Shown here in pieces: positions 41,760-52,276 of a DNA stretch of 64,000 nt. How positions within the stretch are numbered: position 1 is the first letter of the stretch; each line of letters begins with the position of its first letter. Position numbers and translations under genes: made by a program. This stretch comes from Verrucomicrobiota bacterium (lineage in GTDB: Bacteria > Verrucomicrobiota > Verrucomicrobiia > Opitutales > Opitutaceae), in NCBI GenBank assembly GCA_016871755.1, contig VHCJ01000005.1, forward strand, positions 62,001 to 126,000, written 5' to 3'. The notes under the pieces are model-generated. The model was not told the origin of the DNA and did not search any database. It saw only the letters and a list, made by a program, of their open reading frames with translations.

Positions 41760-42488
41760 TTAGAGTCCGCGCCGGACGAAGGCGACATCCGGGTCGTCCT
41801 CCGCCACCCGAACCTCGCCCGACCCCACCTCCCCCGCCAGCGAACGCATGGTCACCGACGCAAGCACCGGAAGGTACCGGCGGAGGTCGTCACTCCGATC
41901 CTCACTCGTTGCCCGGACACTCCACAAATCCCGCGTCACTCCGTCCTTTTCCTGGGGACGGGCCTCGCGCGCCTGCACGCGCAGAAACTTGCGGTAAACC
42001 GGCACGGCGTCGACGAGTTGCTGGTAGCCGATGACCTCGCGCCGCGGCGGCACCGCCACGCGCACCGTCTCGGTCGTGGTCTTTCCGTCCGGACCCGTCG
42101 TCGTAACGGTCTCCTCGCGGACTCCGCCGGCCACCTCCGCATAAATCGGCAACCGATCCGGGCCACCCTCGCCGCGAACCGGCTCGACGCCGAACTCCAC
42201 CTCGATCACGACGTCAGCCCGGGCCGCCGACGGGGCCTCATAGAAGCCGCGCCCGGACAGGGCGGTCCGGACGTAGCCCGCCGCCTCCGCCTCCCGCAGT
42301 CGCGCCACGCCATCCGAGCCCGTCCCCTTGAACTCGATCCGGTAAGCGAGTCCCGGCGAAGGACGGCCCGCGCTCGCGGCCTCGATCTTGACCGGATAGG
42401 AGGTGGCGCAGCCCGCGGCGAGTGCCAGCGATGCCCCCGCCACGAGCCGAACCAGCAGGGGGCGAAGCGTCGCAACGGCGGACAGCAC
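41760..42488 (-). CDS. lipoprotein of unknown function
   Basis: 242 residues from a GTG start. The lipobox LALAAGC places the acylated Cys near residue 26. The rest is soluble and rich in Asp, Glu and Arg, with ADVVIEVEFGVEP and IGYQQLVDAVPVYRKFLRVQARE segments. It resembles the outer-membrane-associated DUF4136-like lipoprotein type, but I cannot confirm membership. It lies 17 nt after the glycine-zipper lipoprotein gene on the same strand and is probably cotranscribed with it. Confidence 0.65.
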   Translation of the reverse strand: MLSAVATLRPLLVRLVAGASLALAAGCATSYPVKIEAASAGRPSPGLAYRIEFKGTGSDGVARLREAEAAGYVRTALSGRGFYEAPSAARADVVIEVEFGVEPVRGEGGPDRLPIYAEVAGGVREETVTTTGPDGKTTTETVRVAVPPRREVIGYQQLVDAVPVYRKFLRVQAREARPQEKDGVTRDLWSVRATSEDRSDDLRRYLPVLASVTMRSLAGEVGSGEVRVAEDDPDVAFVRRGL

Positions 42489-42505
42489 GGTGGACGGGCC
42501 GGCGT

Positions 42506-43183
42506 TCAGGGCGCGCCAGGAGCCTTGTTCGAACCCGCCGACGGGGTGGAGGTCCGATCCGAACCGGCTGCCGACGCCGGGGCGAGGGCAGTCGCCGCCG
42601 CGTCGTCGCTCTTCAGCCGGGCCAGTTCCTCCTCCATCCGGGCAATCTCCGCCTCGGTGAGGAGCAGCTTCTCATTCGCCTCATCCAGCGAGCGCTTCTT
42701 GTTCAGCGCCGCCGTCCGCTCCTCCTTCAATTTCTGCAAACGCTCGTTGGCCTGCTGCACCTTCTTCTGGGCGTCGGCCAATTCCATTTCCGAAATCCGG
42801 AACCCCTGGGTCACCGCCAACTCCTCCTCGATCTCCGCCTTCCGCTTCGCCTCCTCGGCGCGCTTCCGCGCGAGTTCCTGCTGGTAGGCCCGCTCCTGCG
42901 CCAACCGGTCCTGCTCCTTGCGCTCCTTGGAGTCCTTGACCATGCCGACCACGCCGCCGATCAGCGCGCCGGCCGCGGCTCCCGCCAGCACGCCCGTGCT
43001 CGTGTTGCCGCCCGTCGCGCCGGCACCCAGTCCGCCCACGACGGCACCCGCCATCGCGCCGGTGCCGGCACCGGTCGCGGTCTTGGACGGAGCCGGGGAG
43101 TTGCAGGAGGTCAGGCCAAGCAGGACCGCAACCGCGGTCACGCTCGCGATGCCAGGACGAAGGAAACGACGGGTGGCGGTCAT
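42506..43183 (-). CDS. glycine-zipper, coiled-coil lipoprotein
   Basis: 225 residues. Lipobox VLLGLTSC (Cys near residue 27). A Gly/Ala-rich zipper segment (about 37-80: GTGAMAGAVVGGLGAGATGG and GAAAGALIGGVVGMV) could insert in or cross a membrane. A long charged coiled coil (about 85-190) and an Ala/Ser-rich tail follow. The general layout recalls envelope-spanning YMGG/glycine-zipper proteins. It is divergently transcribed from the MotA-like operon, with overlapping candidate promoters, so it may belong functionally to that envelope system. That link is inference from position. Confidence 0.7.
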   Translation of the reverse strand: MTATRRFLRPGIASVTAVAVLLGLTSCNSPAPSKTATGAGTGAMAGAVVGGLGAGATGGNTSTGVLAGAAAGALIGGVVGMVKDSKERKEQDRLAQERAYQQELARKRAEEAKRKAEIEEELAVTQGFRISEMELADAQKKVQQANERLQKLKEERTAALNKKRSLDEANEKLLLTEAEIARMEEELARLKSDDAAATALAPASAAGSDRTSTPSAGSNKAPGAP

Positions 43184-43220
43184 GAGGGGAGTGGTCGAGG
43201 GAGGAGATGCTAAACCGGCA

Positions 43221-43248
43221 TTGCGCTCAGGCGACTCTCGCGTACCTT
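43221..43248 (+). promoter_or_regulatory. candidate promoter of the MotA-like/VWA operon
   Basis: TTGCGC (43221-43226), 16 bp, TACCTT (43243-43248). The -35 box equals that of guaB and the -10 box equals that of eno. It predicts a leader of about 95 nt before the MotA-like ATG. The -10 box overlaps that of the divergent lipoprotein promoter. Confidence 0.45.
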
Positions 43249-43271
43249 AGTCATAAATCGGGGTTTTTCAA
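43244..43271 (-). promoter_or_regulatory. candidate promoter of the glycine-zipper lipoprotein gene
   Basis: Minus strand: TTGAAA (43266-43271), 16 bp, TAAGGT (43244-43249), about 60 nt before the ATG at 43183. Its -10 box shares five base pairs with the -10 box of the opposite promoter, so the two directions should compete for polymerase. Confidence 0.4.
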
Positions 43272-43348
43272 TCGCGCACCGGCACCGCCTCGCGTCCCGC
43301 CTCCCGCCGGTGCCGGGGCTCCGACGCCCCCCCCTCCTCGCCCTCCGC

Positions 43349-44212
43349 ATGATCTCCCGCAACAAGGGGATTCTTTCCCTGGAGTTCCTCATTCCCAACC
43401 TCGGCCTGATCCTCGCGTTCGTGGTCGTCGAAATGTTCTACAGCGCCGTTGTCCGACCCCGCGCCGACGAACTGCTCCTCAAGAACAAGGTCATGCGCGC
43501 CCAAGCCGGCGCCAACGCGTCAGCCACCCTGGATGAGCGCTCGATCTACATCATCATCCGCGACCCGGAGCAGCAGTGGGAGATCATCCTGTTTCTCTGG
43601 GGCATGACCGTGCTTAGCTACAAACTGACCCAGATCGGGCGCGAGCGGCGCCTGTTCAAGCAGGACTTCCTGGCCCTGCAGGAAGGGGAGCGCATCATCC
43701 CGGAGGACGCCTTCGACCGCTACAAGGAGCTCAAGGTGCAGGTGGAGCGCGACCCGAAGCTCCGCGAGCGGCTTCTGCCGGAGTGCCTCCTCGCCGCGCT
43801 CCATCGGTTCCACGCCTCCCACTCGATCCAAGACGCCGCCAACGCCGTCAAGGAACGCACCGACTTGGCGGCCGATCAACTCGACTCCTCGCTCTCGCTG
43901 GTGCGCTACATCGCATGGGCCATCCCCGCGATTGGCTTCATCGGCACCGTCCGCGGCATCGGCTACGCGCTCGCCTACGCCGAGGAGGCGATTCAGGGGG
44001 ACATCTCCGCCGTCACCAGCTGGCTCGGCCTCGCGTTCAATTCCACCCTCGTGGCGCTGCTCCTCAGCCTGGTCCTCATGTTCATCCTCCATATGATGCA
44101 GTCCCGCCAGGAGGCCTTCGTGATCGAGACGCAGTCCTACTGCCGCGACCGCCTGATCGATGTGATGAAGGTCCCGGCAAACGAGACCAACTCCCCCGCC
44201 TCGGTCGCCTGA
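43349..44212 (+). CDS. MotA/TolQ/ExbB-like proton-channel subunit
   Basis: 287 residues with four predicted membrane helices (about 13-32, 77-94, 184-207, 225-249) and a cytoplasmic loop of about 90 residues between the second and third. The last two helices carry the MotA/ExbB signature: AIPAIGFIGTVRGIGYAL, and WLGLAFNSTLVALLLSL with the conserved Thr of the ion path. An extra N-terminal helix and a periplasmic loop (about 33-76) distinguish it from plain TolQ/ExbB (three helices). Such subunits form pentameric ion-driven motors with a B subunit having one helix and an essential Asp. The two VWA proteins downstream fit that role. Alternative upstream start GTG at 43310. Confidence 0.85.
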   Translation: MISRNKGILSLEFLIPNLGLILAFVVVEMFYSAVVRPRADELLLKNKVMRAQAGANASATLDERSIYIIIRDPEQQWEIILFLWGMTVLSYKLTQIGRERRLFKQDFLALQEGERIIPEDAFDRYKELKVQVERDPKLRERLLPECLLAALHRFHASHSIQDAANAVKERTDLAADQLDSSLSLVRYIAWAIPAIGFIGTVRGIGYALAYAEEAIQGDISAVTSWLGLAFNSTLVALLLSLVLMFILHMMQSRQEAFVIETQSYCRDRLIDVMKVPANETNSPASVA

Positions 44213-44242
44213 ACGCCATCGCGGTCACCGTCGCCCCCATCC

Positions 44243-45718
44243 ATGATGCAGGGAATCGAACTTTGTGACGCCAATCTGCAGGCGGCGACCTCCGACGGCG
44301 CGTCGCCGTCGCTGCTGCGGGTCACCGCCCGCGACGGCGCCACTTCCTGGCCGGGCTACGCCCTGCGGGACGGCGATGCCTTGCTCTGCGGTCAGGCGGC
44401 CGAGGATCTCTGGCTCGTCCGGCCGCGCAACATCGTCCACGCCTTCTGGAGCCGCCTGGGCCACGAGCCCGCCACCGTCGCGGGCGGCTCCCGGCCGCTC
44501 TCCTACTCGGAAATCGCGTACGACTTCCTGCGTCGGTTCACCGAGCAACTGCGGGCCGCGGCCAAGACACCCGAGCGCCTCGCCCTCGCCGTGCCGGGTG
44601 CCTACTTGAAGGATCAGGTCACCGCCGAGGAGAAGGTCGGGCTGCTCCTCGGCATGGCGGCCGATCTACGGCTGCCGCTCTGCGGCATCGTCGATCTCGC
44701 CACCGCCTCCCTCTGCGATCCCCGCGCACCCCGCTTCAATCCGGCCCGGCCCGTCCTCCACCTCGACCTGCACCTGCACGCCGCCGAGTTGTCCCTCGTG
44801 GTCGCGGGCGAGCACCTTGAACGCCGCGCTTTCCTGCACCTCCCCGGGTCCGGGCTCGCCGCGCTGCTGAAGCACCTGACCTCCACGATGGCCAACCGCT
44901 TCCTCCGCCAGACCTCCTTCGATGTCATGGCGGACGGGCGGACGGAACAGCTGTTCTACAACCAGACGAAGGCCTTTTTCCTCGGGCACGAGTCCGACTT
45001 CGTCTACCAGATCAATACCGCCCGGCGGGCCTATGAGCTTCCGGTCAAGCGCGAAGGCCTCGGCGCGGACTCTCAGGCCTTCTCGGACGCCCTGCTCAAG
45101 TCCATCCTCGCCTTCGCCGACGAGAACCGCCTCCGGCCTGGGCTCTGCGCCGTCGCGCTCTCCGAGCGCGCCAGCCGCGTCCCCCTGCTTGAGACCCGGC
45201 TGCGGACGGCCGGATTCGTCCGCTTCCTGCACCTGCCAGCGGGCGCTGCGGCGGCCGGGGCCGCGCAACTCGCCGCCTCCTGCCTCGCCGCGCCCGCCGA
45301 ACTCGCGGACATTCCTGTGCTCACGGCGGTCCCCGCCACCTTCGCCGCGCGCCGCCTCTCCGCCCCGTGGGACGTTCATGTCCAGAAGGCCCGTCACACC
45401 CTGCCTCCGCCACCACCTCCCACCCACCTTGTCCTCGAGGGGGTGGGCCTGCCGCTCGCCGGCCGCGACCGCGTGACCGTCGGCACGCAGGGTCAGGGAG
45501 CCACCCTGCCGCTGCCCGATTCCTTCAATCCCGCGGCGAACTGCAGCATCATGCTCGAGCGCTCCGCTGGTCACTGGCAGATGGAGGACCCCGCCTTGCC
45601 CGAGGGCGGCGCGGACCGCGGCGTGCGCATCGACCTCGAGACCGGGGATCGTCTCGTTTTCCGCAGCGGCAACAACACCGTCGAAGTCCTGCTCGTTCAC
45701 TGTTCGGCCGGAAGTTGA
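44243..45718 (+). CDS. degenerate Hsp70/actin-fold protein with FHA-like C-terminus
   Basis: 491 residues, no signal peptide or membrane helix. The layout follows the Hsp70/actin ATPase fold: GIELCDANLQAA at the N-terminus (phosphate-1 position), LALAVPGAYLKDQ (117-125), IVDLATASL (149-157) where Hsp70 has its EPTAAAL helix, and VLHLDLHLHAAELSLV (171-186) in place of the DLGGGTFD loop. The glycine-rich nucleotide loops are lost, so ATP turnover is doubtful. After a Pro-rich hinge (PPPPPPTH, about 400), the last 90 residues look FHA-like (CSIMLERSAGHWQMED, LETGDRLVFRSGNN) but lack the clear phosphothreonine-binding Arg/Ser/His set. It lies between the channel and VWA genes, 30 and 13 nt apart. 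Probably a cytoplasmic scaffold or regulator of the motor. Confidence 0.6.
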   Translation: MMQGIELCDANLQAATSDGASPSLLRVTARDGATSWPGYALRDGDALLCGQAAEDLWLVRPRNIVHAFWSRLGHEPATVAGGSRPLSYSEIAYDFLRRFTEQLRAAAKTPERLALAVPGAYLKDQVTAEEKVGLLLGMAADLRLPLCGIVDLATASLCDPRAPRFNPARPVLHLDLHLHAAELSLVVAGEHLERRAFLHLPGSGLAALLKHLTSTMANRFLRQTSFDVMADGRTEQLFYNQTKAFFLGHESDFVYQINTARRAYELPVKREGLGADSQAFSDALLKSILAFADENRLRPGLCAVALSERASRVPLLETRLRTAGFVRFLHLPAGAAAAGAAQLAASCLAAPAELADIPVLTAVPATFAARRLSAPWDVHVQKARHTLPPPPPPTHLVLEGVGLPLAGRDRVTVGTQGQGATLPLPDSFNPAANCSIMLERSAGHWQMEDPALPEGGADRGVRIDLETGDRLVFRSGNNTVEVLLVHCSAGS

Positions 45719-45731
45719 ACCGTACCCGCCC

Positions 45732-46799
45732 ATGCCCCAGATCAAGAGGCGCCGCGACACCGAGGCCTTCAGTCTCTCCTTCCTTGACTGCATCTGCTGC
45801 GGCTTCGGCGCCATCATCCTGGTCTTCATCCTCACGGTCGCCGAGCGGCGGTCTGTGGCCCGCATCAACGTCGATGACCTCGACGAGCGGGTGCGGCGCA
45901 TGGAAACTCAGGTCGCCACCACCCGCAACGAGGTTGAACGGGTCGAACGCCTGCTGGCCGCCGCCCAGGCCGAGTTGCCGGCCCTCCAGCAAAAGACAAC
46001 GGATACGCAGCTCAAGCTCACCGATCGCCAGCGCCAGTTGCTGGCCATGCTCGAGCAGACCGGCAAGCTCCGCGAGGCCCTGGCCACGCTGCTTGAGCAA
46101 AAAAAGTCGCTTCCGACCGTCGATCAATCACCCATCCCGATCCCGGAGGTCGACCGCCGCCAGTACCTCACCGGCGTCAAGCTGGAGGGTGAATGCGTCC
46201 TGTTCATCGTCCGCACCTCCGGCTCGATGCTCGGCGAAACCGTCGAGGAAGCCAGCGCGATGCTGGAGGAGAACGAAACACGCAAACGCGAGGCTCCCAA
46301 GTGGCAGCGCGCCCTCCGCTCCCTCGAGTGGATGATCGCATCGCTGGACGAAAAGACCCGGTTCCAAGTCCTCCTCTTCAACGAGGACGCCTCCTTGATC
46401 CTGCCGGACCGGGGCGACGAATGGTTCTCGATCAACGACCGGCAGACCCTCAAGCAGGTGGTCGGCCGCCTGCGCGAGATCGTCCCCGGAGGCAGCGCCA
46501 ACTTGGAGCGCGCCTTCTTCCGCGTCCGCACGCTTTCCCGGTTGCCCGACGCGATCGTCCTCATCACCGATGGGCTGCCGACCGCGAGCGATTCCTTTCT
46601 CAGCGAGGGAGCGACCAACGACGAGCAGCGCATCCGTTTCTTCCGGGAGGCCGTCCGCGGCCTGCCCGAACGCATCCCAGTCAGCACGATCCTCATGCCG
46701 ATGAGCGGTGACCCGGCCGCTCCGGCGCTGTTCTGGGAACTCGCCAACCGCACCCGGGGCGCCCTCGTCAGCCCGGCCAAGACCTGGCCCGAAGCATGA
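45732..46799 (+). CDS. single-pass membrane protein with coiled coil and VWA domain (B-subunit-like, altered MIDAS)
   Basis: 355 residues. Basic N-terminus, then FSLSFLDCICCGFGA (13-27) opening one membrane helix (about 17-36), a coiled coil (about 40-125), and a VWA domain (about 150-350) that should be periplasmic. Asp19 stands at the head of the helix, where MotB, TolR and ExbD have their proton-carrying Asp. The MIDAS motif reads RTSGS (161-165) in place of DxSxS: Arg replaces the first metal ligand, whereas the later VLITDG is kept. The domain may therefore bind a partner without metal, or bind a different ligand. Its stop overlaps the next start as ATGA, and the downstream protein is a paralogue. 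Confidence 0.8.
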   Translation: MPQIKRRRDTEAFSLSFLDCICCGFGAIILVFILTVAERRSVARINVDDLDERVRRMETQVATTRNEVERVERLLAAAQAELPALQQKTTDTQLKLTDRQRQLLAMLEQTGKLREALATLLEQKKSLPTVDQSPIPIPEVDRRQYLTGVKLEGECVLFIVRTSGSMLGETVEEASAMLEENETRKREAPKWQRALRSLEWMIASLDEKTRFQVLLFNEDASLILPDRGDEWFSINDRQTLKQVVGRLREIVPGGSANLERAFFRVRTLSRLPDAIVLITDGLPTASDSFLSEGATNDEQRIRFFREAVRGLPERIPVSTILMPMSGDPAAPALFWELANRTRGALVSPAKTWPEA

Positions 46800-47797
46800 T
46801 CCGCCGCCGCAAGATCGAGGTCTTCAGCCTCTCCTTTCTGGACTGCATCTGCTGCGGCTTCGGCGCGATGATCCTGATCTTCGTGCTCTCGATCGGCGCT
46901 CAGGGCCGCAACCAGCGCGCCACGATCGAGGCCCTCCAGCGCATGCTCGCGGCTCACCTCGCCAGCCTCGCCCAACTCACCCAGACCAAACAGGAGCTGG
47001 AGCTGAACTACACCGCGACCCTCACGCTGGCCGCCGACACCAAGCTCAAGAACGCCGACCTGCAGTCCCTGCTCGACGACCTCGACCGCCAGCTGTCGCG
47101 CGAGAAGTCCGGGCAGGAGGCGCTGCTGGTCGACGTGGACGAGCTGCGCCGCGAGATCGCCGCCCGCCAGAAGCGGCCGGAGATGGTCCTGCCCAAGGTC
47201 GAGCCGGCCCCGGTCGGCGTGCCCGTCGGCAGCAACCACATCGCGTTCGTCATCGATACCTCGGGCTCCATGCGCGACTTCAACTCCGGGCAGCTCTGGC
47301 CGATCGTCATCCGGAAGGTCGAGGAAGTGCTGGATGTCTATCCCCAGGTCGATGGCATCCAGATCCTCGACGCCGACGGACGCTTCGTCCTCGGGGAACG
47401 GGGAGGCGCGCAGTGGCTGCCGGACAGCCCGGAAACCCGCGAGGGCATCAAGCGAGCCCTGCGCCGCTACGACGTGTTCAGCGAGAGCAACCCAGTCCCC
47501 GGGATCTTCCGCGCGCTCCGCCTTCTTCACGATCCCAACGACCCCAACATGCGCATGGGACTCTACATCTTCGGCGACGAATTCACCGGACTGGCGGACG
47601 CGGTGCTTCGCCGGGTCGACGAACTCAATCCCGCCGACGAAAAGGGGGAGCGTCGCGTGGTGATCAACGCCGTGGCGTTCCCCACGACCATCCGGTTCGA
47701 CGTGTCCCTGGGCAACACCGGGCTCAAGCTGGCCAACCTGATGCGCGAACTCTGCTACCAGCACGGCGGGGCCTTCGTCGCCCTTCAGGATCTGTAG
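46796..47797 (+). CDS. single-pass membrane protein with coiled coil and VWA domain (B-subunit-like, intact MIDAS)
   Basis: 333 residues, paralogue of the upstream protein. The same N-terminal FSLSFLDCICCGFGA motif (10-24, Asp16) opens one membrane helix (about 14-33). A coiled coil (about 38-125) and a VWA domain (about 147-330) follow. Here the MIDAS is intact: FVIDTSGSM with DxSxS at 154-158. The pair may form a heterodimeric B subunit with one metal-binding and one altered VWA head. It starts with ATG overlapping the previous stop and is the last gene of the plus-strand operon, facing the TPR operon across a short hairpin. Confidence 0.82.
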   Translation: MIRRRKIEVFSLSFLDCICCGFGAMILIFVLSIGAQGRNQRATIEALQRMLAAHLASLAQLTQTKQELELNYTATLTLAADTKLKNADLQSLLDDLDRQLSREKSGQEALLVDVDELRREIAARQKRPEMVLPKVEPAPVGVPVGSNHIAFVIDTSGSMRDFNSGQLWPIVIRKVEEVLDVYPQVDGIQILDADGRFVLGERGGAQWLPDSPETREGIKRALRRYDVFSESNPVPGIFRALRLLHDPNDPNMRMGLYIFGDEFTGLADAVLRRVDELNPADEKGERRVVINAVAFPTTIRFDVSLGNTGLKLANLMRELCYQHGGAFVALQDL

Positions 47798-47816
47798 TTC
47801 GATTCGACCTCACGCA

Positions 47817-47831
47817 ACCGCACCGAGCGGT
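47817..47831. terminator. short hairpin between the two converging operons
   Basis: ACCGC / GCGGT with a 5-nt loop, in the 37-nt gap between the VWA operon and the opposing exported-protein gene. There is no T-run. Termination role inferred from position. Confidence 0.35.
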
Positions 47832-47834
47832 CCG

Positions 47835-48746
47835 CTATAGTCCGAGAATCCGACGGAAGAGTCCGACAATCGCGGAGAGCGGATCCGAACCGCCGGACTG
47901 ACCGCTCGACGGCGCCCCGGGGGATCCGGGCATTCCGGCTCCACCCCCCGCGCCTTGGCCGGTCGACTGCCCGGAAGCCGCGCTGCCGGGCTGGCCAGCC
48001 TGCGATCCCTGGCCCGCGCCCGCCCCCGCGGCGCCGCTCGCGCCCCGGTTGCCCGGAGCCGCGCCCGAATTGGACTGACCTCCGCCCAAGGAAGCCACCT
48101 GCTGCGAACCCAGCCCGTCACCCTGCCCGGCCCCGCTGCCGGCGTTGCCGTCCGCAGCTCCGCTCTGCCGGCCGGCCCGCGAGCCGCGCCCATCGGCCCC
48201 AGAGTCACCGGGGCCCGTACCGTCCGTTGCCGTCCCGCGCTCGGCCCCACCCGCGCCGCCGGCGCGGTCGGCACCTCCCGAGTTCGCACCGTCGCCCTCG
48301 CCGCCCTCCCGACCACCCCCGGCTCCGTCGCCCCCGTCCTCCTCCCCCCCACCTCCCGCTCCGCGGGATCCGTACCGGCCCGAGAGGGTGAAACGCACGA
48401 AGTCGACTTTGCTCGACGCGAGCGAGGCGCGGTTGCGGACCGCGGCATCCCGCACCGACTCCAGTTCCCAGGCATGGCGGCGCGCGGTCTCGCGGTCCGG
48501 CAAGGGACCGAAAAGCAGCGTGAGGTTCTCATGCTGGTAGCGCACGTACCAGCCTTCGTCGCTCAGCCCGAGTCCCGTGACGTTGATCCCGCCAAACTTC
48601 GTCTGGAAGTCCGTCGCGCCGAGTTGCCACAAGTCCGCAATCGCCTCGACCGGGTACACCACCGTCTTGGCGGGAAGGCTCGCCGCGAGTCCGGCCACGA
48701 CCGCCAACAGGACCGACACTCTCAGAGAACGGGAAAGCAGCTTCAT
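47835..48746 (-). CDS. exported protein with Gly/Ser/Ala-rich tail
   Basis: 303 residues from the ATG reading MKLLSRSLRV. A TTG six codons upstream is less likely. A signal peptide (SVLLAVVAGLAASLPAKT) leads to a folded-looking domain of about 100 residues (VEAIADLWQLGATDFQTKFG, WYVRYQHENLTLLFGPLPD). About 170 residues of Gly/Ser/Ala/Gln-rich low complexity follow, and the short hydrophobic/amphipathic end is AIVGLFRRILGL. I do not recognise a family. It is the third gene of the TPR operon and lies 14 nt after the preceding stop. It is probably periplasmic or cell-surface. Confidence 0.7.
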   Translation of the reverse strand: MKLLSRSLRVSVLLAVVAGLAASLPAKTVVYPVEAIADLWQLGATDFQTKFGGINVTGLGLSDEGWYVRYQHENLTLLFGPLPDRETARRHAWELESVRDAAVRNRASLASSKVDFVRFTLSGRYGSRGAGGGGEEDGGDGAGGGREGGEGDGANSGGADRAGGAGGAERGTATDGTGPGDSGADGRGSRAGRQSGAADGNAGSGAGQGDGLGSQQVASLGGGQSNSGAAPGNRGASGAAGAGAGQGSQAGQPGSAASGQSTGQGAGGGAGMPGSPGAPSSGQSGGSDPLSAIVGLFRRILGL

Positions 48747-48760
48747 CGTCGGGATCGCGC

Positions 48761-49489
48761 TCAAAGCCCGGTCGGCATGACCTTGCCCTTCTCCACGCCT
48801 TGATTTCCCCGCCCGCCCGACTGCTTGCCCCCGCCTGGCGTCTTGGGATCATAGCTCTGCGGCGTCTCCTTGCCCTTCTGCTGGGGTTCGAGTCCCACGA
48901 CGCTTGCGGCCGAGCCCGGCGGGAGCGTCTTGATCTGCATCGAGGCATCGCCGATCCGGACGTCGCCCGGCTTTGACGCCTTCCCCTGCGCCTGACTCGC
49001 CGCAGCCCCGCCCGAGGGATCGCTCAGGCTTGATGCCTGCGTGCCCTCGGCAACCGCATCCGCAGCTCCCTGCGCCTGAATCGGCTCGATCCCCCCCGCC
49101 CCGGCTGCGCCCGCCGCCGAGCCCGCCGCCGAGCTCCCCCCGGCCGCTGACGCCGACGCGGCGGCGGCCGCTGACGCCGCAGGACCCTGGGCACCGGACG
49201 CCGGCGGGGGCTCTCCGGACGAGCCCACCCGATCGCTCTTGGCATCCTCCTGCCCCGGCAACTCGAAGTTTCCGATCATTCCATACTCCGGCCGCTTCTC
49301 GGCCGCTTCCTTGCTGCCATCGAGCAAGGCCGGGTCCGGCAACGGACCTTTGGTCTGGCCACGAGCCGGACGAGCGGAGTCGCGCTCGGATTGAGCGGGG
49401 GCGATCGAGGCGGCCAGGAGCGATGCCGCACCGATCAGGCTCCGGAGCAAGGCGGAAACGCCCGCCGAGGGAAGAGAGGCCGTGCTCAT
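48761..49489 (-). CDS. exported low-complexity protein
   Basis: 242 residues. Signal-peptide-like start (ALLRSLIGAASLLAASIAPAQS), then an Ala/Gly/Ser/Gln-rich chain with no obvious fold. It contains a short ordered-looking patch DVRIGDASMQIKTLPPGSAA near residue 175. No family recognised. Its ATG overlaps the stop of the TPR gene (ATGA), which implies coupled expression with that membrane protein. Composition resembles the tail of the next exported protein, suggesting that both may be structural or spacer components. Confidence 0.7.
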   Translation of the reverse strand: MSTASLPSAGVSALLRSLIGAASLLAASIAPAQSERDSARPARGQTKGPLPDPALLDGSKEAAEKRPEYGMIGNFELPGQEDAKSDRVGSSGEPPPASGAQGPAASAAAAASASAAGGSSAAGSAAGAAGAGGIEPIQAQGAADAVAEGTQASSLSDPSGGAAASQAQGKASKPGDVRIGDASMQIKTLPPGSAASVVGLEPQQKGKETPQSYDPKTPGGGKQSGGRGNQGVEKGKVMPTGL

Positions 49490-51204
49490 AGTTTGTCCGC
49501 CTTCAGGGTGCAGATGACTGAGACGACCGGCGCGGGCGCACCATTGTTCCGGACCTGCAGCGACAGCAGCACGTCCTGATAGCCCTTGCGACGCCCGATC
49601 ACTTCATAATCCCCCGGCAGGATCTTGACCTTGGTCTCCTCGGCCTGACCCAGGAGGCGGAAGTTCGTGATCGAGATCCACGTCTTTCCATCGCCCCGAA
49701 AGGTGATCTCGACCGGCTGGTTCTGCTGGTACAGCAGGTCGCGCAGCTGCGCGAGGCGCTCCGCCACCGGCAAGTATTCCGGCTTCAGGGACATCGCCTT
49801 GTTGAAGTCCCGGATGGCGGACTGGAACTCCGCCCGCGCCGCCTTCTGCTCAGCCACCTCGATGAGCTTGTAATACTCCAGCAACGTGCGGATCACCCGG
49901 CCGGAGCGCGCATAGCCCTCCTTGGCCTCGACATGATCCGACTTCAGCTGCAGCGCCTCGTAGTACGCGCCCCGCGCTTCCTTCCATTGGTACTGATTCT
50001 CGTAGGCGAAGGCCTTGGCGACGGCGGAGTCGACCGCGTCCTGATGCGCCTTGGCGCGGGCCGAGGCGAGTTGCTCCTTCACATCCTCCGCCTTCGGGGA
50101 AACCTTCAGGGCCTTCTCAAACTCGGCGATGGCGACGGGCCAGTCGCGCTTGGCGTAAGCCGCCTTGGCCGTCGACACCGCGGCGGCGAACCGCGTCTCG
50201 CTCTCAAGGCGAAGCGCGCGCGCCTTGCCCTGCTGCGCCGTGGCATTGAGCGCGTCGAGGCCAAACGCCTTTTCGTAGGCCGCCGCGGCCGCCGCATACC
50301 GACCGGCCGTCTCGTGGCCCGTCGCATCCTGCAGCAGCGCGTGCACCTGCTCCGCGTGCACCGCACGCTTCAATCCCTGCAGCGCCATCTCATTGCCGGG
50401 GGACTTTTCCAGCGTGGCCCGGAAGGCGGTCTCCGCCTCGCTGCGCCGTCCCTCCACGAGCGCCCGCTGGCCGCGGATCAGGTTGCCCTCGATGAACCCG
50501 TTGAGCGCGTACTCCGCGCGCTTCAATTCCGCGAAACCGCGATCGAACGTGCGCTTCGCCGCGAGAAAGCTTCCCTCCAGCATGAACTGCCGTCCACTCC
50601 CCGCCGCCGCGAACGCACCCTCGAGCGCATCGGGGGCCAGGCTGCGCGCGCGTTCCAAGTCCTGAATCCGCGCGAGGATCGTGTCGTAGGCCGTCTGCGC
50701 CTCGCCCCGCGCCTTCACCGACTGCGCGAACTCGTCGATCTCGCGGTTCAGGAATTCAAACTGCGTCAGCGCGGCCGCGAAGCTGCGCGAACTCAGAAGC
50801 GCCTCCCCGGCGAGAAACGACTTCTCAAGGAGGATCAGCTTTTCCAACTGCCGCGGATGATCAGTAGGGAGCTTCCGGACCTCCGCCAGGGCCTTGCCGG
50901 CCGTCTCCCGTGCCAACTCCGCCTTCGACTGACTCACAAACGCCGCGCCGGGATCCGCCGGAGTCGCGCCCGGCGAACCGGCGATCGGCGACGAACTCGC
51001 GACGAAGACGTCCGGCCCAAACACGAGCTTGATCCCGCGGATGACGATTCCCGCCGCGAAAAGAAGTCCGAAGAATCCCCCCACCGTCCACGCGAGTACG
51101 CGCCACCACGACAGTCGTCGGCGCGAGGGGGCGTTGCCCGCGTCCGGATTCCAATGGATCACCCGATGCTTGCGACTGGGGGAAGGAAGCGGTTCGTCAG
51201 CCAT
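49486..51204 (-). CDS. membrane-anchored TPR protein with PEGA-like C-terminus
   Basis: 572 residues from the ATG beginning MADEPLPSPSRKH. About 30 basic cytoplasmic residues, one membrane helix (about 33-57, VLAWTVGGFFGLLFAAGIVI), then a long helical periplasmic region (about 80-480) with tetratricopeptide-like repeats (YAKRDWPVAIAEFEKALKVS, YQWKEARGAYYEALQLKSDH, FQSAIRDFNKAMSLKPEYLP). The C-terminal domain of about 80 residues looks PEGA-like (TKVKILPGDYEVIGRRKGYQ). It is a likely scaffold for periplasmic or wall partners. It is first in the minus-strand operon and is preceded by a candidate promoter of the same type as that of the MotA-like operon. Confidence 0.8.
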   Translation of the reverse strand: MADEPLPSPSRKHRVIHWNPDAGNAPSRRRLSWWRVLAWTVGGFFGLLFAAGIVIRGIKLVFGPDVFVASSSPIAGSPGATPADPGAAFVSQSKAELARETAGKALAEVRKLPTDHPRQLEKLILLEKSFLAGEALLSSRSFAAALTQFEFLNREIDEFAQSVKARGEAQTAYDTILARIQDLERARSLAPDALEGAFAAAGSGRQFMLEGSFLAAKRTFDRGFAELKRAEYALNGFIEGNLIRGQRALVEGRRSEAETAFRATLEKSPGNEMALQGLKRAVHAEQVHALLQDATGHETAGRYAAAAAAYEKAFGLDALNATAQQGKARALRLESETRFAAAVSTAKAAYAKRDWPVAIAEFEKALKVSPKAEDVKEQLASARAKAHQDAVDSAVAKAFAYENQYQWKEARGAYYEALQLKSDHVEAKEGYARSGRVIRTLLEYYKLIEVAEQKAARAEFQSAIRDFNKAMSLKPEYLPVAERLAQLRDLLYQQNQPVEITFRGDGKTWISITNFRLLGQAEETKVKILPGDYEVIGRRKGYQDVLLSLQVRNNGAPAPVVSVICTLKADKL

Positions 51205-51319
51205 GGTGCGGAAGGGATGAAGGGGAATGGGGGGGACCTTTCCGGGGCCCACGACCTGGCCATCCAAAAGGTCAACCGGTGCTCGCCGCGGGCACGCGGG
51301 ACCCACCGCGAACGCGCAA

Positions 51320-51347
51320 ACCGTAGCCGAATTGCCGCGCTCCGCAA
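51320..51347 (-). promoter_or_regulatory. candidate promoter of the TPR operon
   Basis: Minus strand: TTGCGG (51342-51347), 16 bp, TACGGT (51320-51325), about 110 nt before the TPR-protein ATG. Box identity, spacing and leader length are close to those of the MotA-like operon promoter at 43.2 kb, compatible with co-expression. Confidence 0.4.
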
Positions 51348-51445
51348 GGGGCGAGTGCACGCCTTGCGATTCCCCACGCCTCATGCGACTTTTCTGGCAC
51401 TCCGCCGCCAAATCCGTGTCCAGTCGTCCGACTCCCCCGACTCCC

Positions 51446-52276
51446 ATGAGCGCGCGTCTCGCCCTCCGCCCTCCGGTGTTCCTCGCCGTCCTTGCCGCCC
51501 TTTCCCTCAGCGGCTGCTATCAGGTGCCGGTGACCGGCCGGAAGGCCCTCGATCTGACCTCCGACGTGGAACTGGCCAAGGTCTCCAGCAAGGCCTTCGA
51601 CGAGATCAAGTCGCGGCATCGTCGCTCGACTGACCGGGCCCGCCTTGATCAGGTCCAACGAGTCGGGGAGCGCATCGCCAAGGTGGTGTTCTGGGACATG
51701 CCAAACGCCGACTGGGAGTTCGTGCTATTCGATGAACCGCGGCAGATCAATGCCTTTGCCATGGCGGGCGGCAAGGTCGGGGTCTTCTCCGGCCTTTTCC
51801 GGATCGCTGACTCCGACGACGAACTGGCGTCCGTCATCGCCCATGAGATCGCCCACGTGACTGCCCGCCATGTCCACGAGCGTCTCTCCCAAGAGATGCT
51901 CGCCCAGGCCGGCGGTGTGATCGGCGGCGTCGGACTGATGGGTGCCGGGGCGGGCTCGCTTACCACCTCCGCCCTGCTCGGCCTCTACGACAGCACCGCC
52001 ACCCTGCAGATGCTCGCCTATGACCGGGGCAAGGAGAAGGAGGCCGACTACATCGGGTTGATGTACGCTGCCCGCGCCGGCTTCAACCCGGAGGCGGCCA
52101 TCAGCGTCCTCGAAAAGCTGGAGGCCGAAACCGGGTCGCAACCGCGGCCCCCGGCCTTCGCCTCAACGCACCCTCCCACCCCGGATCGCATCGTCCAACT
52201 CCGCGACGCCATGCCCAAGGCACTCGAGGTCTACCGTACGGCGGGAAGTCGAGCGGCGGCCCCGGTGGTTCGGTAG
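51446..52276 (+). CDS. M48-family metalloprotease lipoprotein
   Basis: 276 residues. The lipobox LSLSGC makes Cys24 the lipid-anchored residue. The zinc motif HEIAH lies at 133-137 within VIAHEIAHVTARH, and the third ligand Glu is in KEKEADYIGL. It resembles LoiP/YcaL and BepA-type periplasmic proteases that check outer-membrane protein assembly. No TPR repeats follow, so it is LoiP-like and not BepA. The ATG is chosen from the signal peptide. The frame is open upstream without signal character. It diverges from the TPR operon across 241 nt. Confidence 0.9.
   Translation: MSARLALRPPVFLAVLAALSLSGCYQVPVTGRKALDLTSDVELAKVSSKAFDEIKSRHRRSTDRARLDQVQRVGERIAKVVFWDMPNADWEFVLFDEPRQINAFAMAGGKVGVFSGLFRIADSDDELASVIAHEIAHVTARHVHERLSQEMLAQAGGVIGGVGLMGAGAGSLTTSALLGLYDSTATLQMLAYDRGKEKEADYIGLMYAARAGFNPEAAISVLEKLEAETGSQPRPPAFASTHPPTPDRIVQLRDAMPKALEVYRTAGSRAAAPVVR

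Follow-up and report, generated by a model that had tools for sequence, protein, structure and literature searches.

A candidate ion-driven envelope machine with a MotA-family channel, paired VWA proteins and conserved partner genes in Verrucomicrobiota and other phyla

The four-gene operon and its proteins

The DNA considered here, termed the window, is a stretch of 64,000 nucleotides from a Verrucomicrobiota bacterium of the Opitutaceae (assembly GCA_016871755.1, contig VHCJ01000005.1, positions 62,001 to 126,000, forward strand), whose draft genome comprises 3.67 Mb in 144 contigs and is 97% complete. Four plus-strand genes, all starting with ATG, encode a MotA/TolQ/ExbB-family channel, a protein with an Hsp70-type fold and an FHA-type tail, and two VWA proteins, VWA1 and VWA2 (Table 1). 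The tight operon recognized in an earlier note on this DNA was found as described, with gaps of 30 and 13 nt followed by a 4-nt overlap. Gene order and motifs recur in loci of several phyla, so the set is not a chance assembly, and the four genes are part of a larger conserved set that probably builds an ion-powered, envelope-spanning machine. The linked cluster in the window is larger than the operon, spanning about 41760-52276.

The channel exceeds the curated cut-off of Pfam MotA_ExbB (PF01618; 48.1 bits versus 22.9), as anticipated from the sequence, and carries the signature motif RYIAWAIPxIGFIGTVRGIG. Two threonines in its last two helices are invariant in 95/95 aligned unique rows (T205/T238 in alignment numbering; T200/T233 of the ATG-started protein); these and the residue counts below come from length-filtered, de-duplicated alignments. 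The protein falls under the NCBIfam cut-offs for tolQ (19.4 versus 221 bits) and exbB2 (18.3 versus 135.35 bits), and a sequence search of the PDB returned TolQ only, at E values of 0.64 and 0.65. Five further MotA/ExbB-family genes occur in the same genome (G000, L001-L005), some adjoining ExbD-like genes, so that other energised envelope systems probably coexist there.

The second protein has no Pfam match at E values up to 1, and neither PADLOC nor NCBIfam assigns a family to it or to VWA2. Its AlphaFold2 model, built from 60 sequences, is of high confidence (predicted local distance difference test [pLDDT], 93.2; predicted template modeling score [pTM], 0.85), and in a fold search residues 1-350 correspond to the nucleotide-binding domain of Hsp70 (best Z, 33.2; 336 residues aligned; 2.6 Å; 15% identity). 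Foldseek E values range from 4e-19 to 7e-17 across the 50 matches listed. A beta-rich tail follows residue 350 and is barely covered in the fold search. Pfam FHA matches the tails of relatives (L099, E = 1.6e-8; L125, L136, L165 and L172, E = 1.1e-12 to 7.6e-11), and the tail in the window, which lacks the canonical SxxH, belongs to the FHA type. The description of a degenerate Hsp70-fold protein with an FHA-like tail is thus upheld by the model, the fold search and the Pfam matches of relatives.

The nucleotide-binding-domain fold is shared with DnaK, mortalin and Ssz1 (Z about 33), but the Hsp70 phosphate loops are not conserved and the tails of relatives are of FHA type. Across 83 aligned unique relatives, with positions matched by eye, the Gly-rich loops, whose reference motifs we take to be GTT and DLGGGT, are not conserved: D-x-G/N occurs without GTT, and D/E-L-x-L-H stands in place of DLGGGT. 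Because these loops are not conserved, the protein is likely a pseudo-ATPase, as judged from its residues.

VWA1 and VWA2 are paralogues, each with one strong N-terminal hydrophobic segment, and the proposal of two single-pass coiled-coil VWA proteins holds in this respect and in their VWA matches. Pfam VWA_2 matches VWA1 at an E value of 1.6e-4 and VWA2 at only 0.035, both under the curated cut-off. The VWA2 model shows a long helix followed by a VWA fold (pLDDT, 78.1; pTM, 0.56); among PDB structures, it matches the VWA protein 4fx5 (TM-score by query length, 0.41; probability, 1.00; E = 4.1e-7), and an entry titled B19V capsid, through its chain I, ranks first (E = 4.6e-8). The helix of both proteins begins with an invariant aspartate (Asp17 of VWA1, 108/108; Asp16 of VWA2, 98/98 aligned unique rows). 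The first residue of the metal ion-dependent adhesion site (MIDAS) is equally invariant in VWA2 (Asp154, 98/98), whereas in VWA1 it varies over the 108 rows (D, 79; E, 15; R, 14), and the window has R. Lined up by eye, the FLD at the helix start resembles LLD of Escherichia coli TolR and LID, LVD and MID of ExbD-like proteins from the same genome.

Table 1. Genes of the operon and of the linked cluster, in window coordinates
Feature	Coordinates	Strand	Remarks
MotA/TolQ/ExbB-family channel, proposed A subunit	43349..44212	+	287 aa; Pfam MotA_ExbB
Hsp70-type nucleotide-binding-fold protein with FHA-type C-terminal tail	44243..45718	+	491 aa; model and fold search
VWA1, proposed B subunit	45732..46799	+	355 aa; N-terminal transmembrane helix (Asp17), coiled-coil stretch, VWA with degenerate MIDAS
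VWA2, proposed B subunit	46796..47797	+	333 aa; N-terminal transmembrane helix (Asp16), long helix, VWA with MIDAS DTSGS
Exported protein, no family assigned; convergent three-gene operon	47835..48764	-	4-nt overlap with neighbor
Gly/Ser/Pro-rich exported protein; convergent three-gene operon	48761..49489	-	4-nt overlaps on both sides
Membrane-anchored TPR protein, PEGA-like C terminus by resemblance	49486..51204	-	572 aa from ATG at 51204; TPR matches
M48 metallopeptidase with lipobox-like signal LSGC	51446..52276	+	276 aa; proposed start; Pfam Peptidase_M48, 132.8 bits
Divergent glycine-zipper-like lipoprotein	42506..43183	-	Cluster U4424o, 17 loci; Gly-zipper only at E = 0.045 and 0.057
Divergent lipoprotein	41760..42488	-	Cluster U5204o, 23 loci; DUF4136 only at E = 0.081

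The invariant aspartate in each VWA helix and the invariant channel threonines are as expected of 5:2 motors and therefore argue for the VWA pair as B subunits, the role given to it in the earlier note. That note knew of no described system with this set, but a motor of a channel and paired VWA proteins was predicted in 2025 with AlphaFold3 models (Williams-Jones et al., PMC12204202). According to the main text of that paper, heterologous “TPH-vWA” pairs co-occur tightly with TolQ homologues without TolR or ExbD, mainly in Proteobacteria and Verrucomicrobia; the models place the vWA helix with its Asp inside a TolQ-like pentamer; a role is described for the channel Thr ring; and no function is given for the pair family. 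The core in the window, a heterologous vWA pair with the helix Asp that adjoins a TolQ-like gene, has no TolR/ExbD beside it and occurs in Proteobacteria and Verrucomicrobia, fits the TPH-vWA motors, whose reference is from Idiomarina, in each described feature that could be tested. The Hsp70-like, PEGA and M48 partners of window-type loci, in contrast, are unnamed in the main text of PMC12204202, where the terms Hsp70, DnaK, sulfatase, PEGA and M48 are absent and FHA appears only as FhaC. These partner genes go beyond that main text, although its figures and supplement may show some of them. The motor core is thus already in print as a prediction, and the motor idea is sound; the present analysis adds a co-inherited TPR-PEGA partner, a wider parts list and a kinase-FHA link. 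Among the literature searched, which held few subscription papers and no preprints, only PMC12204202 describes the channel-VWA pair in the text available. The available text of two papers on 5:2 motors (PMC9389320 and PMC12505986) contains neither VWA nor von Willebrand, and that of PMC7159879 places VWA, PEGA and Hsp70 in MoxR- and GTPase-centered systems, with no MotA or TolQ.

The main text of PMC12204202 also describes a separate side-binding vWA family with an SHLS motif, for which a TPR gene is mentioned; it is for this family that the paper notes a lack of reported deletion phenotypes. VWA1 and VWA2 could likewise be TolA/TonB-like transducers bound to the side of the channel, an unlinked ExbD or TolR serving as the B subunit, and ExbD-like genes do lie near other channel genes of this genome. 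This arrangement is improbable: both VWA helices carry the aspartate expected of B subunits, the SHLS motif is not visible by eye in the aligned helices, and Pfam at E values up to 1 gave no ExbD, TolR or MotB family match in VWA1 or VWA2. Neither ten proteins of the window nor ten from L124, L099, L084 and L102 had a tolR/exbD-type Pfam match.

Co-occurrence of the channel and the VWA pair

Among 387 Verrucomicrobiota genomes, the VWA1 query matched 27. In 23 of these the match is strong (E of 1e-45 or lower) and accompanied by another one, to VWA2; the four weak matches (E above 1e-4, partial) were left out of further counts. The MotA type (E = 1e-50 or better) was found in 24 of apparently the same 387 genomes, and these include all 23 with strong VWA1 matches (Fisher, 3.7e-36, relatedness not controlled), so that the co-occurrence check named beforehand in the earlier note came out in favor of the motor. 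The exception is G364, in which the contig ends 260 bases from MotA and also holds upstream parts of the machine; a VWA2 search of this genome gave nothing. The Hsp70-like query found matches in 22/61 genomes of the window's own family.

Gene neighborhoods were compared at 128 loci holding VWA2, after removal of three duplicates (L093, L118 and L211). Their sampling is not neutral, as 17 neighborhoods were found with the Hsp70-like query and others with VWA1. A scan of named genomes contributed the best 80 of 193 confirmed loci and for this reason leans to the query's close relatives. Judged by record title, these loci are mostly from Gammaproteobacteria and Desulfobacterota-type organisms but also from Acidobacteria, Myxococcales and others; carriers include Microbulbifer agarilyticus (L149), Seongchinamella unica (L128), Bowmanella yangjiangensis (L159) and Pseudohalioglobus sediminis (L138). 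A further sample (398 genomes) came from the phylum to which Peristeroidobacter soli belongs, which we take to be Pseudomonadota; VWA2 was found in 21 (16 strong and 5 weak), and 14 of the 16 were fetched.

The following counts cover loci with at least 3.6 kb upstream of VWA2. In the window's family, MotA, the Hsp70-like gene and VWA1 each occur at 23/23 loci, 17 of which were found by the Hsp70-like query itself. In other Verrucomicrobiota the counts are 10/12, 6/12 and 11/12, respectively, bringing MotA to 33/35 loci in the phylum. The named scan gave 57/58, 49/58 and 58/58, with 20 more loci of shorter upstream sequence set aside, and the sampled Pseudomonadota gave 13/13, 3/13 and 13/13. 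VWA loci that are split or lack an adjoining MotA (L163, L118/G338, G206 and G205) belong to genomes with a strong MotA match for 5/5 handles, apparently four distinct genomes, as G338 and G428 are apparently one. In Peristeroidobacter soli, the unlinked MotA is part of another operon, which is complete (L210). Distance correlations between the operon proteins range from 0.74 to 0.95; they are not used as proof, because a common species history is enough to produce high values.

The Hsp70-like protein is not constant in this set. It was detected in 20/48 genomes tested, all 20 motor bearing, and not in 16 other motor-bearing genomes or in 12 motor-free ones. Being missing or partial in some motor-bearing genomes, the gene is not core. 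A clade of small-genome Pseudomonadota (L202-L207 and L212-L216; 1.6-3.1 Mb) has the channel and the VWA pair with shorter VWA proteins and no Hsp70-like gene.

Partner genes and the kinase-FHA link

Further conserved genes emerged from an all-against-all comparison of the neighborhoods. The proteobacterial order is a secreted Gly/Ser-rich protein, a 410-aa lipoprotein, TPR-PEGA, PEGA-SUMF1, MotA, Hsp70-like, VWA1 and VWA2. In many Gammaproteobacteria, genes for two lipoproteins and one for an M48 peptidase come next (Pfam assignments from L124 and other loci); Pfam has no match for the proteobacterial lipoproteins or the first gene. Over the 54 named loci whose upstream sequence reaches 8.5 kb, the four genes preceding MotA occur in 47, 52, 51 and 52, respectively, and all four are present at 10/10 sampled Pseudomonadota loci with that much upstream sequence, including the small-genome clade without the Hsp70-like gene. 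The two downstream lipoproteins and M48 occur in 34, 33 and 32 of 61 named loci with 4 kb downstream. The four genes of the operon are not the whole machine, since TPR-PEGA is co-inherited and more envelope proteins are linked. A gene preceding the operon at 12 loci (cluster U10136; L124:7-618) has, by eye, a TonB-like C-terminal region.

The TPR protein of the window is a homologue of the TPR-PEGA protein of the proteobacterial operon; its C terminus is named for PEGA by resemblance, as Pfam gives TPR only. The open reading frame start at 51447 is probably unused, and the conserved start at 51204 leaves a divergent gap of 241 nt to M48. TPR-PEGA was found in 24/387 genomes (E = 1e-25 or better), 23 of them shared with the MotA set (Fisher, 8.8e-35, relatedness not controlled), and is a co-inherited partner of the motor. 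Its detection in the window's family is partly by construction, since 4/10 profile rows come from there, which does not apply elsewhere. The gene adjoins the motor genes in 8/23 genomes; in the remaining 15 it is on a different contig or separated from them by 0.3 Mb or more (about 2 Mb in G048), although draft contigs may adjoin.

Homologues of the two exported proteins of the convergent operon were found in 11/36 other loci searched for the first and in 10/36, three of them weak, for the Gly/Ser/Pro-rich one. The two divergent lipoproteins are linked in related loci too. The M48 gene clusters with the M48 downstream of VWA2 in Gammaproteobacteria, which shows family and not orthology.

These lipoproteins and the M48 peptidase point to envelope work and bear on a possible relation to the Zorya anti-phage system. 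The channel is of the MotA family, as in ZorAB, and PADLOC ZorA models match about 90 of its residues weakly (E = 9e-6 at best). The only other PADLOC match among six proteins is LmuB, to the helical stretch of VWA1 (E = 0.005); ZorB gave none among the six. Unlike ZorAB, the system has a VWA pair without a Pfam OmpA match, and its partners are envelope proteins. No nuclease or similar defense effector occurred among the operon proteins tested with Pfam, and VWA1 had no match in 72,556 plasmid records. An anti-phage role is thus highly improbable.

PEGA-SUMF1 (E = 1e-60 or better) was found in 9/36 genomes tested, comprising 9/25 motor-bearing and 0/11 motor-free ones. Its best NCBIfam match is GldK/PorK (TIGR03525; E = 9.5e-30), and the available text of PMC8986121 describes GldLM as a motor that is driven by protons and has been proposed to work on the GldKN ring. 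The machine might accordingly power secretion or surface movement in the manner of GldKLMN of Bacteroidota, with PEGA-SUMF1 as a GldK-like ring part. The GldK score, however, is 104.2 bits in L124, far short of the required 350, and might stem from nothing but the common SUMF1 fold; moreover, the window's own genome has two short PEGA-SUMF1 matches and none of full length. This role is rather unlikely. An FHA fold guessed by eye at the N terminus of the 800-aa form of PEGA-SUMF1 was rejected, as Pfam FHA was absent in L102, L112 and L125.

A possible regulatory branch appears in some lineages. N-terminal H(R/C)D and DFG kinase motifs occur on TPR-PEGA at 6/79 loci (L125, L136, L153, L165, L172 and L210), and Pfam Pkinase was found in all three kinase-bearing TPR-PEGA proteins tested. 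The Hsp70-like protein has a canonical SxxH FHA tail at 6/6 of these loci versus 4/54 Hsp-bearing loci counted as kinase free (L097, L099, L103 and L130). The other TPR-PEGA loci comprise three that are kinase-like, one with SxxH, and 16 without an Hsp70-like gene. The association (Fisher, 4.2e-6, or 1.9e-5 with kinase-like loci counted as kinase; relatedness not controlled) is inflated because related species are included, and the motif pattern missed at least L084 and L146, which are kinase-like by eye and have degenerate FHA tails. These motifs do no more than suggest a reading of the TPR-PEGA kinase by the Hsp70-like protein.

VWA and PEGA domains serve mostly in binding. Together with the joint presence of kinase and canonical FHA at the six loci, this would suit an outside-in sensor in which the VWA heads, on meeting a load or ligand, gate ion flow or the kinase/FHA branch, the output being signaling and not work; PEGA is a binding domain also in the available text of PMC7159879. 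Against such a sensor, 70/79 loci show no kinase-like motif by the above pattern, although it missed at least L084 and L146, and the channel and VWA pair persist without Hsp70/FHA. A sensor is an unlikely reading.

Candidate mechanism and nearest known motors

The observed gene set and order, the conserved residues, the folds of two proteins and the co-inheritance make an ion-driven, trans-envelope force machine with VWA1 and VWA2 as B subunits a likely reading; from them we infer stoichiometry, ion coupling, a heterodimer, ligands, regulation and purpose. Five channel copies would form a ring whose pore holds two transmembrane helices, one each from VWA1 and VWA2, and ions passing the VWA aspartates and the channel threonines would turn or push the pair. 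The long helices would carry this motion into the periplasm, where the VWA heads may grip partner proteins, mainly through VWA2, the metal site of which is intact. Candidate partners are the membrane protein TPR-PEGA and, in other lineages, PEGA-SUMF1 and lipoproteins. The degenerate Hsp70-fold/FHA protein may act as an adaptor in the cytoplasm; in some lineages it probably reads phosphorylation by the kinase fused to TPR-PEGA, which would make the motor switchable. The purpose would most likely be the moving or unloading of outer-membrane components, as in Tol-Pal or GldKLMN.

By analogy, the machine is best read as functionally nearest to TolQR and GldLM. It shares with ExbBD and TolQR the A-subunit superfamily, an Asp where the B helix begins and the channel threonines; in contrast, it has two different B proteins, each with a long helix and a VWA head, and misses the tolQ and exbB2 cut-offs widely. 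The closest functional model, again by analogy, would be GldLM with the GldKN ring of type IX secretion and gliding (PMC8986121, available text), in which a motor is likewise coupled to periplasmic and outer-membrane parts and which the SUMF1-fold partner of other lineages recalls. Unlike GldLM-GldKN, the present set has a different B protein and different partners, misses the GldK cut-off and is found outside Bacteroidota. A fuller version is tentative: an asymmetric VWA1/VWA2 motor with an Hsp70-FHA clutch that would read the TPR-PEGA kinase and act via PEGA-SUMF1 and lipoproteins at the outer membrane, possibly a widespread and undescribed counterpart of GldKLMN outside Bacteroidota.

Several observations weigh against these proposals. 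Peristeroidobacter soli has a second VWA1-VWA2 pair (L163:8901-10996, also L211) without an adjoining channel or partners; this pair lies near genes that look by eye like those of cytochrome c maturation. VWA2 and VWA1 are on separate contigs in G205, where TPR-PEGA was not found, and TPR-PEGA is present in the motor-free G158. The latter match (G158:C6:255992-256891), in a genome of 1.7 Mb without a motor match, is possibly a remnant of motor loss. G007, of the window's genus and 97% complete, has no match to the channel, VWA, Hsp70-like or TPR-PEGA proteins, and the motor system is therefore accessory. The 16 motor-bearing genomes without the Hsp70-like protein are G364, four of one Verrucomicrobiota family and every one of the 11 small-genome Pseudomonadota tested; in five further genomes the match is confined to about 200 N-terminal residues. 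PEGA-SUMF1 at E = 1e-60 was found in 0/11 motor-bearing genomes tested of the window's family, and the 410-aa lipoprotein had no match in the window's own genome, in a search without its own positive control; the window's version and the proteobacterial machine therefore differ. Statements of absence are limited, because only 3 to 6 candidates were scored per genome (5 for VWA1, 6 for MotA and 3 for TPR-PEGA). Confidence in the VWA2 model is moderate, as its pTM indicates, and to our knowledge no phenotype is known for the motor set.

Motors of 5:2 type are understood, in part from the available text of PMC12905483, to power flagella, nutrient uptake, division, gliding, secretion and phage defense. 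The force machine proposed here would be a further motor of this type, with different heads on the moving part, present in several phyla and now provided with a partner list. This list makes the short published prediction testable by offering deletion targets, candidates for motor-bound proteins and possible points of regulation.

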